From assembly GCA_947454025.1 (NCBI GenBank), contig CANGIZ010000013.1:1-39822 (forward strand): 39,822 bases of DNA, read 5' to 3'. Shown piece after piece: positions 19,418 to 21,543 of this stretch. The stretch comes from Bacteroidota bacterium. Lineage in GTDB: Bacteria; Bacteroidota; Bacteroidia; Chitinophagales; Chitinophagaceae. Both the position numbers and the translations under genes were made by a program. Each line of letters starts with the position of its first letter. Within the stretch, counting starts at the first letter, position 1. The notes under the pieces are model-generated. The model made no database searches and was not told the DNA's origin. It was given only the letters and a program-made list of their open reading frames with translations.

Positions 19418-20416
19418 TTAAATAATCCCTTTTGATGCAAGATACTCTGCAATTTGTACTGCATTGGTAGCAGCACCTTTGCGTAAGTTGTCACTTACTA
19501 TCCACATGTTCAAAGTTTTTGCTTGGGTTTCGTCTCTACGTAAACGACCTACAAATACTTCGTCTTTTTCATGCGCCCATAAAGGCATTGGATAAATTTG
19601 TGCAGCATCATCTTGTTGAACAATGATACCAGGCGCAGCAGCTAATTCAGCAATCACTTCTTTCAAATCAAATTCATTTTCAAACTCCACATTCACACTT
19701 TCACTATGTCCTCCCATTACTGGGATACGCACCGTAGTTGCTGTTACTTTAATAGTATCGTCTTGCATAATTTTGCAAGTTTCTTTTACCATTTTCATTT
19801 CCTCTTTTGTATATCCGTTGTCTAAGAAAACATCAATCTGAGGAATGGCATTTAAATCAATTTGATATTTATAAGCCATATCATCAGCTGCTAATTGTTT
19901 GCCAGCGCGTTCATCCATTAATTGATCAACTGCTTTTTTTCCAGTACCCGTTACACTTTGGTAAGTGCTTACTATGACTCTTTTAATTTTATATTTTGCA
20001 TGCAATGGTTGTAAAGCCACTACCATTTGAATGGTAGAACAGTTTGGATTCGCGATGATCATGTCTTCAGCAGTTAACACATTTGCATTGACTTCTGGCA
20101 CAACTAATTTTTTAGTGGGGTCCATTCTCCAAGCCGATGAGTTATCAATTACGCGTATACCTGCAGCAGCAAATTTAGGAGCCCACTCTGTAGAAGTGCC
20201 ACCACCTGCCGAAAAAATAGCTACTGCTGGCTTGGCAGCAATACCTTCTTCCATTCCAACTACCTTATACGCTTTACCTTTGAACATTACTTCCTTACCT
20301 GCAGAACGCGCAGAGGCTACTGGAATTAATTCAGTTACTGGAAAATTTCTTTCAGCTAGTACTTGTAACATTTTTGTGCCTACTAGCCCTGTGGCACCTA
20401 CTACTGCAACACGCAT
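19418..20416 (-). CDS. asd: Aspartate-semialdehyde dehydrogenase
   Basis: NADP-dependent reduction of aspartyl phosphate to aspartate semialdehyde, the branch point to lysine/diaminopimelate, threonine, methionine and isoleucine. The N-terminus has the dinucleotide-binding VGATGLVG (residues 5-12). The catalytic cysteine is C126 in NPNCST, and the active-site region GGHSESVNVEFENEF and the late AHEKDEVFVGRLRRD segment are family-typical. At 332 aa it is full length. Its upstream region contains a promoter, a small Lys-rich ORF, a stem-loop and an intrinsic terminator, so expression is probably controlled by premature termination. It is convergent with ligA. Confidence 0.96.
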   Translation of the reverse strand: MRVAVVGATGLVGTKMLQVLAERNFPVTELIPVASARSAGKEVMFKGKAYKVVGMEEGIAAKPAVAIFSAGGGTSTEWAPKFAAAGIRVIDNSSAWRMDPTKKLVVPEVNANVLTAEDMIIANPNCSTIQMVVALQPLHAKYKIKRVIVSTYQSVTGTGKKAVDQLMDERAGKQLAADDMAYKYQIDLNAIPQIDVFLDNGYTKEEMKMVKETCKIMQDDTIKVTATTVRIPVMGGHSESVNVEFENEFDLKEVIAELAAAPGIIVQQDDAAQIYPMPLWAHEKDEVFVGRLRRDETQAKTLNMWIVSDNLRKGAATNAVQIAEYLASKGII

Positions 20417-20468
20417 GGTTATTGGTTTTTACTTTTAAAATTCACTTATTTGTTTTCAGTGATGTAAC

Positions 20469-20496
20469 AAAAAAGCCCTCCATTTTGTGGAAGGCT
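20469..20496 (-). terminator. Intrinsic terminator in the asd leader
   Basis: On the minus strand AGCC-T-TCCA (20496-20488) pairs with TGGA-G-GGCT (20482-20474) around a 5-nt loop, with one mismatch, and is followed by six T residues (20474-20469). It lies between pfkB and asd, 52 bases before the asd ATG. It can end pfkB transcripts, and it also sits in the path of transcripts started at the promoter at 20591-20622. Confidence 0.85.
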
Positions 20497-20585
20497 TCTG
20501 AGTATATTTATTCGCATACAAACAATCAGACCTTCCTCTTAGAGTGGTTTCTTAATTTGTTTTGTATGTTTATTTTTCATCATTG
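20474..20585 (-). ncRNA. Candidate attenuator/pseudoknot leader RNA of asd
   Basis: The minus-strand RNA can fold CATACAAAACAA (20568-20557) with TTGTTTGTATG (20525-20515), giving 11 pairs with one bulge. The loop of this stem contains GGAAGG (20536-20531), complementary to CCTTCC (20494-20489) in the 5' arm of the terminator. Pairing of these two would form a pseudoknot with the first stem and exclude the terminator. A small ORF (20583-20539) overlaps the 5' strand of the stem. The result resembles either a leader-peptide attenuator or a ligand-controlled switch. It matches no riboswitch class that I can recognise; lysine and SAM classes do not fit. Confidence 0.5.
20539..20583 (-). CDS. Putative 14-aa leader peptide before asd
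   Basis: ATG ATG at 20583 opens a short frame MMKNKHTKQIKKPL followed by TAA. Five of 14 residues are lysine, an end product of the asd pathway; Met, Thr and Ile, also pathway products, occur as well. The predicted transcription start is within a few bases of the ATG, so translation might be leaderless. The stop codon lies inside the small CTC-TAA-GAG element and next to the GGAAGG segment that can oppose the terminator, as expected in ribosome-mediated attenuation. Lysine codons are frequent in AT-rich DNA, so chance is a real alternative. Confidence 0.35.
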   Translation of the reverse strand: MMKNKHTKQIKKPL

Positions 20586-20590
20586 TGAAA

Positions 20591-20622
20591 CAAAATTAAT
20601 TGGATGCAATCATTTCACCAAA
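20591..20622 (-). promoter_or_regulatory. Promoter of the asd leader (TTTG-N20-TAATTTTG)
   Basis: On the minus strand TTTG (20622-20619) and TAATTTTG (20598-20591) are separated by 20 bases, an exact match to the Bacteroidota -33/-7 consensus. It begins directly after the pfkB stop codon. The predicted start of transcription is near 20585, just before the small leader ORF. Confidence 0.7.
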
Positions 20623-21543
20623 TTAAACTAATTCAATATCAAAATTGACTAAAGAAACAAACGATTGTACGCGTTCTTTAATCTCATTCATATTGATCTC
20701 TGTTAATCTTTGTGTACCAAACTTCTCAACGCAGAAACTTGCCATTGCACTACCTAGGATAATAGCAGACTTCATGTTTTCAAAAGAAAAATCTTTAGTC
20801 TTAGCCAAATGTGCAACAAAGCCGCCAGCAAAGGTATCACCAGCACCAGTTGGATCAAATACTTCTTCTAATGGTAAAGCAGGTGCAAAGAACACTTCAT
20901 TCTCATGGAACAATAAAGCACCATGTTCACCTTTCTTGATGATCAAATATTTAGGACCCATCGCCATGATTTTTTTAGCCGCTTTCACTAAACTATACTC
21001 ACCACTTAATTGACGTGCTTCACTATCGTTTACCATTAATACATCCACCAAACTAATTGTATGTTTTAAATCGTCCAACATAATTTCCATCCAAAAATTC
21101 ATCGTATCCATAACGATTAATTTAGGACGATTTTTCATTTGCTTAATTACGCTACTTTGTACACCTGGCACCAAGTTGCCTAACATTAAAATATCACAAT
21201 CTTGATAACTATCAGGAACTACAGGCTGGAAGTTTTCCAGTACATTTAATTGTGTATCTAAGGTATCACGCGTGTTCATATCTAAATGATATTTACCGCT
21301 CCAAAAAAAAGTCTTTTCGTCTTTCTTAATTTGCACGCCTTCTAATATCACACCTCTGTTGGCTAATGCGCCTAATTCTGATTGTGGAAAGTCTCCACCA
21401 ACTACAGAAATTTGTTTTACGGGCGTAAAATTGGATGCGCACCATGCAATATAAGTTGCTGCACCTCCTATAATTTTATCACTTTTTCCAAAGGGTGTTT
21501 CGATGGCATCAAAGGCCATTGATCCTACGACTACTAAAGACAT
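20623..21543 (-). CDS. PfkB-family carbohydrate/nucleoside kinase
   Basis: Ribokinase-fold kinase that phosphorylates a sugar or nucleoside with ATP; the substrate cannot be told from sequence alone. The N-terminal GG motif region is FGKSDKIIGGAATYIAWCAS, and the C-terminal signature DPTGAGDTFAGGF contains the catalytic base D236. At 306 aa the length is normal and it is cytosolic. Relatives in Bacteroidota are often annotated simply as sugar kinase, some as adenosine-kinase-like. It is followed by the asd leader promoter and terminator and is divergent from the TetR gene across 163 bases. Confidence 0.88.
   Translation of the reverse strand: MSLVVVGSMAFDAIETPFGKSDKIIGGAATYIAWCASNFTPVKQISVVGGDFPQSELGALANRGVILEGVQIKKDEKTFFWSGKYHLDMNTRDTLDTQLNVLENFQPVVPDSYQDCDILMLGNLVPGVQSSVIKQMKNRPKLIVMDTMNFWMEIMLDDLKHTISLVDVLMVNDSEARQLSGEYSLVKAAKKIMAMGPKYLIIKKGEHGALLFHENEVFFAPALPLEEVFDPTGAGDTFAGGFVAHLAKTKDFSFENMKSAIILGSAMASFCVEKFGTQRLTEINMNEIKERVQSFVSLVNFDIELV

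Follow-up and report, generated by a model that had tools for sequence, protein, structure and literature searches.

The DNA analysed here (the window, 39,822 nucleotides of a Chitinophagaceae bacterium of the phylum Bacteroidota) carries a structured leader with a Lys-rich reading frame between a PfkB-family sugar kinase gene and asd, the gene of aspartate-semialdehyde dehydrogenase. This raises the question of whether the leader controls asd, and by what means; the initial annotation left two models, ribosome stalling at lysine codons and ligand binding by the RNA itself. From comparison with related genomes we conclude, with a probability of about 0.88, that the asd leader is a ribosome-mediated (leader-peptide) transcription attenuator which senses lysyl-tRNA supply and sets asd expression.

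Organization of the pfkB-asd leader

All leader elements, from pfkB to asd, were read on the minus strand of the window. The upstream neighbour, which lies outside the switch, is a PfkB-family sugar kinase gene (20623..21543) whose product reaches the cut-off of none of the 21 NCBIfam models listed and is therefore assigned at the family level only. The putative controlled gene is asd (19418..20416; NCBIfam TIGR01296, 420.8 bits, cut-off 324.2), and the convergent gene 3' of it is presumably ligA. The promoter (20591..20622) consists of TTTG at 20622-20619, a spacer of 20 nt and TAATTTTG at 20598-20591, which we take to be the -33/-7 promoter type of Bacteroidota, and its TTTG begins at the first base past the pfkB stop (pfkB end, 20623). 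The leader ORF, MMKNKHTKQIKKPL (20539..20583), runs from ATG at 20583 to TAA at 20539 and has 14 codons, five of them Lys. Its ATG lies 7 nt 3' of the -7 box, and given this distance the ORF is probably nearly leaderless.

Three pairings can be drawn in the leader. Region 1 (CATACAAAACAA, 20557..20568), located within the ORF, is the 5' arm of stem P1 and forms 11 pairs with the 3' arm TTGTTTGTATG (20515..20525), as indicated by folding and covariation. GGAAGG (region 2a, 20531..20536), which starts 2 nt past the ORF stop codon, pairs with CCTTCC (20489-20494), and the inner strand CTGA (region 2b, 20526..20529) pairs with TCAG (20498-20501); both assignments come from a test of own against permuted partners. 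The antiterminator 3' strand TCAG...CCTTCC (region 3, 20489..20501), identified in the pairing tests, overlaps the 5' arm of the intrinsic terminator (regions 3:4 with U-run, 20469..20498), which is indicated by folding and covariation and has its stem at about 20498-20472 and the U-run to 20469. The 126-nt leader folds with z = -4.75, a value equalled by 0/200 shuffles. The promoter directly after pfkB, the 14-codon ORF and the 11-bp stem were thus found as the initial annotation had described them, and so was the terminator, which it had placed at 20474-20496; the GGAAGG:CCTTCC complementarity stood as well, but the antiterminator proved larger than proposed there, since CTGA:TCAG is to be added.

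Conservation and distribution of the leader

In a BLASTN search of the intergenic region against 120 relatives, 66 had a match at E<=0.01. The pfkB-asd site was the location of 50 of the 55 BLAST loci read, the other five being short weak matches elsewhere; among the 50, the contigs of L025 and L119 end before asd, and L120, L122 and L134 are without pfkB. The conserved core in these relatives extends from just 5' of the ORF through the terminator end, and the spacer from terminator to asd is 17 to 277 nt long. All 80 named asd loci were also searched for terminators that have a matching strand upstream: the layout was common to 23 of the 80, and 27 entered the ORF analysis. Of the 77 loci that entered this analysis in all, L134, L037, L045, L046 and L051 were not anchored. 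The 72 anchored loci represent 69 distinct cores (L001, L002 and L004 have one core, L032 and L118 another, and L119 and L120 belong to one genome), with relatedness only partly controlled. L120, at a contig end, was anchored and has no ORF; it was dropped from the pairing and ribosome-position tests, which therefore comprised 48 leaders.

A covariance model, R1, was built from 49 dereplicated asd leaders (72 reduced to 49). At E<=1e-4 it matched 89 of 396 genomes of the order, all of them in the window's family, Chitinophagaceae; sequence-level reading covered part of these 89 strong matches. In 395 genomes of the phylum, the sole match outside the family at E<=1e-4 was in G712 (L207, E=1.8e-5), and it was rejected as a leader because it reads as a gene end (...DKFMNKYKKFAK and stop) plus terminator. 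The reading of outside-family matches with E above 1e-4 covered L208-L210 and L228; L208, L209 and L210 were rejected, as no leader lies ahead of a pathway gene. Three in-family matches (L217, L218 and L221; E 0.004-0.008) are likewise not leaders. The own genome holds a single asd-leader copy at E<=0.001 (DNA) and E<=0.01 (model).

The element is not universal in the family. In a set of 30 family asd loci picked mostly for an absent or weak covariance-model match, it was absent from 25, that is, all except L295-L299; L296, L297 and L299 have the leader, and L295 and L298 the terminator only. Four of the 25 leaderless loci (L302, L306, L309 and L316) have a terminator-like hairpin and no Lys-rich ORF. 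The element is also absent from L031 despite a 96% identical Asd. In both L031 and L037 the leader and promoter are missing together, with pfkB and asd nearly adjacent. L295 and L298, from genomes of the same genus (G064 and G294), carry the terminator GGCCTTCC before asd, and no Lys-rich ATG-started ORF was found there; these are possibly decaying leaders or leaders started by GTG or TTG. A further observation concerns the spacer between terminator and asd, which in L007, L010, L011, L013 and L022 appears by eye to be expanded by similar small palindromic units: the unit GTCCTTGAAAGGAC occurs in the L007 and L022 spacers and look-alikes in L010, L011 and L013, perhaps representing a mobile hairpin repeat.

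Promoter and coupling to asd

The box TAnnTTYG was found 2-14 nt ahead of the leader start in 59 of 71 loci, compared with 1.9% of shuffled upstream sequence. No promoter box was found between terminator and asd in any of 71 leader loci (L025 and L119 having no asd on the contig), nor in the last 70 nt before asd in any of 72. A leader with its own promoter and terminator, whose conserved core stops at the terminator while the spacer to asd ranges so widely, could also be an independent small RNA of about 115 nt, with asd expressed from a promoter of its own. However, the spacer box missing from all 71 leader loci was present, as a TAnnTTYG-type box within 70 nt of asd, in 18 of the 25 family asd loci judged leaderless, and all 62 R1-found leader loci read, which had been fetched and picked as leaders, precede asd (41), dapA (6), hisG (12) or an aminotransferase gene (3). 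We therefore regard an independent small RNA as very unlikely and presume that the leader promoter probably drives asd. The terminated leader may in addition act in trans, as described for rnTrpL of S. meliloti (PMC10117765).

The leader reading frame

ORF stops were sought from -12 to +29 nt of the antiterminator, and the frame richest in K, T and M was chosen. By this procedure 71 of the 72 anchored loci, with the window among them, had a short ORF ending beside the antiterminator, and in all 71 ORFs the first base of the stop codon falls in one of two ranges relative to the first base of the antiterminator motif, 3-6 nt ahead of it or 7-12 nt past it. The stop position is kept despite differing C-terminal residues, and in both stop classes a terminating ribosome would lie over GGAAGG.

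For site counts we used the HT anchor, carried by 65 of the 71 ORFs. Lys occupies sites -1, 2, 5 and 6 in 64, 63, 63 and 61 of the 65 HT-anchored leaders, respectively, and sites 5 and 6 fall outside P1, so that conservation of Lys codons in relatives, on which the initial annotation had made its reading depend, was found outside the stem. The codons at site 5 are AAG in 48 and AAA in 15 (n=63), and at site 6 AAA in 59 and AAG in 2 (n=61), a slight synonymous exchange. Moreover, the 58 distinct leaders compared contain 6.31 K+T each, against a value of 4.13 (sd 0.19) for nucleotide shuffles.

The core KHTK[QR]xKK is conserved within the window's genus, where the peptide is highly conserved with its H, T and P, which could point to a nascent-peptide arrest sensor, in which KHTKRIKKP[LR] itself stalls the ribosome, perhaps together with a metabolite. 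However, the C-terminus varies outside the genus (KKQFSNREGA, KHTTNTKKHISEREGV, INFTNTTIKTIKGFPRGKA), the peptide tail of L122 and of L036, which comes from the cultivable Sediminibacterium roseum, is in another frame with the Lys/Thr content retained, and H and T sit in the P1 5' arm, where pairing can explain their conservation; an arrest peptide is accordingly rated even lower than the small RNA.

One asd leader differs in composition: L034 (1003-1120; MINFTNTTIKTIKGFPRGKA and stop) has four Thr, three Ile and three Lys codons and is dominated by Thr, which looks like a shift of the control amino acid towards threonine.

Pairing and folding of the predicted RNA switch

In a duplex test, each 5' segment of the 48 leaders was paired with the 3' segment of its own genome and with those of the others (2000 permutations). 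The own partner was better for P1, the whole antiterminator and the terminator (0/2000 each; also in the genus and wide sets). Within the antiterminator, the outer helix GGAAGG:CCTTCC gave 0/2000 in all 48 leaders and 4/2000 in the genus set, and the inner helix CTGA:TCAG gave 0/2000 in the genus set and is unsupported in the wide set (297/2000). A third candidate helix (GTAT:ATAC region) was rejected, with 1249/2000 in all leaders and 1883/2000 in the wide set.

The initial annotation had proposed a covariance analysis of relatives, and its two halves came out differently: P1 and the terminator covary on the alignment (0/500 shuffles, five measures), but covariation of the antiterminator in the MAFFT alignment was not above shuffles (104/500), because its sequence is nearly invariant. 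The antiterminator cells are nevertheless paired in that alignment more than in shuffles (3/500). In both the covariation and the duplex tests relatedness was only partly controlled.

Terminator and antiterminator both use CCTTCC and are mutually exclusive. When a modelled ribosome was placed at the final usable Lys codon, all 48 leaders formed the antiterminator before the terminator 3' arm existed; when it was placed on the stop codon, 0 of 48 did, a result that arises partly by construction, as the masked stretch cannot pair. With no ribosome the antiterminator formed early in 36 of 48, so the untranslated state is left unpredicted by the model. Full-length folding gave the terminator in nearly all leaders and the antiterminator in 2-3 of 48, so that a kinetic switch has to be assumed.

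Proposed mechanism

We propose the following sequence of events. RNA polymerase would initiate just past pfkB, and a ribosome would translate the nearly leaderless 14-codon ORF. When lysine is ample, the ribosome would reach the stop codon and cover GGAAGG, no antiterminator would form, and the terminator would act and leave asd off. When Lys-tRNA is scarce, the ribosome would stall at Lys codons, most likely at the KK pair, masking the P1 5' arm and leaving GGAAGG free; GGAAGG and CTGA could then pair with CCTTCC and TCAG, the terminator would be pre-empted and asd would be made. Translation, stalling, the sign of the response and lysine as the main signal are what we infer from this arrangement, with Thr, and perhaps Met or Ile, as conceivable further inputs. 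Those features of the leader-peptide attenuator class that a sequence can reveal, namely a candidate regulatory-codon ORF and a predicted exclusive antiterminator and terminator, were both found. The attenuator reading of the initial annotation is thus supported by the parts themselves, by stop placement, by Lys codon conservation and by leader codons that match the pathway.

Comparison with known systems

The comparison with Rfam that had been suggested for the leader returned no family at the gathering cut-off in the whole window, lysine riboswitch and T-box included. The leader itself had 13 sub-threshold matches, none of them a riboswitch or T-box; Phe_leader (RF01859) reached 23.7 bits and Thr_leader (RF00506) 19.8 bits, the cut-off being 55 for both. 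A riboswitch that binds lysine or some other product of the aspartate family, the short ORF being incidental, would fit a compact structured leader with a terminator and conserved unpaired stretches, but it is the least probable explanation considered here, given that no Rfam family reached cut-off, that Phe_leader was the best sub-threshold match, that the conserved stretch corresponds to a reading frame in which the Lys codons (AAG or AAA at site 5) and the stop position are retained, and that the hisG leaders found by R1 carry His codons. The strongest argument against it is the match of codons to pathway, and of the two models offered at the outset ribosome stalling thus appears strongly favoured and ligand-binding RNA disfavoured. 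The lysine riboswitch (Rfam RF00168) resembles the asd leader in governing lysine-pathway genes, but acts by direct ligand binding.

In thrL (RF00506), a short ORF with aspartate-family control codons is combined with mutually exclusive hairpins and an intrinsic terminator. The asd leader has a comparable control-codon ORF, exclusive hairpins and terminator; however, the thrL codons are Thr/Ile and those here are Lys/Thr, and the gene and phylum are others. In Phe_leader, the His leader and trp-type attenuators, 1:2, 2:3 and 3:4 pairings are steered by ribosome position. The asd leader would work alike, with no homology to them shown, but differs in that its start codon lies 7 nt from the -7 box. 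As far as its sequence can tell, it is a lysine-coded case of classic ribosome-mediated transcription attenuation from Bacteroidota, and it matches no Rfam family.

Lysine sensing usually relies on riboswitches, T-boxes or proteins. Here the ribosome apparently reads the lysine supply, and it does so in a phylum where our literature searches showed no described amino-acid attenuator. The nearest idea met in these searches is SEP5 of S. meliloti, which has six Thr and three Lys codons, lies upstream of an 'aspartate dehydrogenase' gene and was suggested as a leader peptide (PMC10117765). It resembles the asd leader as a Thr/Lys-coded uORF ahead of an aspartate-pathway gene, but belongs to Alphaproteobacteria and was reported as conserved only in Sinorhizobium, and the part of that text compared describes no attenuator structure (PMC10117765). 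According to a 2010 survey, Proteobacteria and Actinobacteria were until then the only known sources of leader-peptide systems, to which the survey adds Firmicutes (PMC2965389). Open-literature searches returned no described amino-acid attenuator in Bacteroidota, lysine leader included; older surveys (PubMed 20198868, 15135544) may list Bacteroidetes cases. The asd leader would serve as a simple reporter for transcription-translation coupling in Bacteroidota.

Related leaders before other pathway genes

The six dapA leaders (L192, L193, L195, L198, L200 and L201; four genera) are Lys-rich with an asd-like layout, their peptides being MQLIKKHTKQVKKHSMYGEG and five others, and all six genomes also carry an asd leader. 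dapA was found in 80 of 80 genomes; reading of the best 30 loci plus that of the own genome yielded five leaders, and G258 supplied the sixth. In the own genome no terminator or leader was found within 330 nt upstream of dapA. The asd leaders did not significantly exceed the dapA leaders in Thr (p=0.14) or in Met (p=0.20).

The presence of homoserine dehydrogenase was considered as a cause of the Thr/Met content and offered no contrast, as 76 of 80 genomes have the gene. The own genome is one of the four of 80 without it: no homoserine dehydrogenase domain (PF00742) was found in its 86.8% complete assembly, which may reflect an assembly gap.

The three leaders before an aminotransferase gene (L222, L225 and L226; MTRKLHKSKKHLPNR, MMNNKPYKKDKKRIPQR and MKYNKAYKYIKYTSLLG) are also Lys-rich. 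An aspartokinase gene follows the aminotransferase gene in L225 and L226, and in all three genomes asd is without a leader. The gene was found in 63 of 80 genomes, and 30 loci plus L222 were read, with the same three leaders only; a further Lys-rich candidate, L291, was rejected as a gene end. None of the 25 NCBIfam models shown (of 66) reached cut-off, and 'aminotransferase' is a class name only. The Lys codons of the leader, together with the adjoining aspartokinase gene in two genomes, suggest that this aminotransferase is tied to lysine synthesis; leader codons may in this way hint at the function of a downstream gene.

The 12 hisG leaders contain 4 to 6 His each and were matched by R1 with E of about 2e-4 to 1e-2. 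Lys makes up 27% of residues in asd leaders and 6% in hisG leaders, and His 7% and 32%, respectively (the 111 asd leaders compared include repeats; 93 distinct peptides). That a model built from asd leaders alone weakly matches hisG leaders hints at common descent. It is possible, though we hold it only tentatively, that a single attenuator scaffold, made up of a nearly leaderless uORF, P1, a two-part antiterminator and a terminator, was re-used and re-coded in Chitinophagaceae, with Lys(/Thr) for asd, dapA and the aminotransferase-aspartokinase operon and His for hisG, codon cassettes being swapped on a common RNA frame into a regulon. If this is true, ribosome and polymerase would have to be tightly coordinated in the leaders of Bacteroidota.

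The own genome has a His leader (MNLNNHIHHHHLLSIG and stop) with a terminator directly before hisG (G000:C9, L230:1217-1333, plus strand; R1 36.9 bits). In another family of the order, L228 (1436-1557, plus strand) contains a Cys-Cys ORF (MKKNVNRQMCCSSIKDV and stop) followed by a terminator before the gene of O-acetylhomoserine sulfhydrylase (metY, TIGR01326), a possible Cys-coded attenuator.
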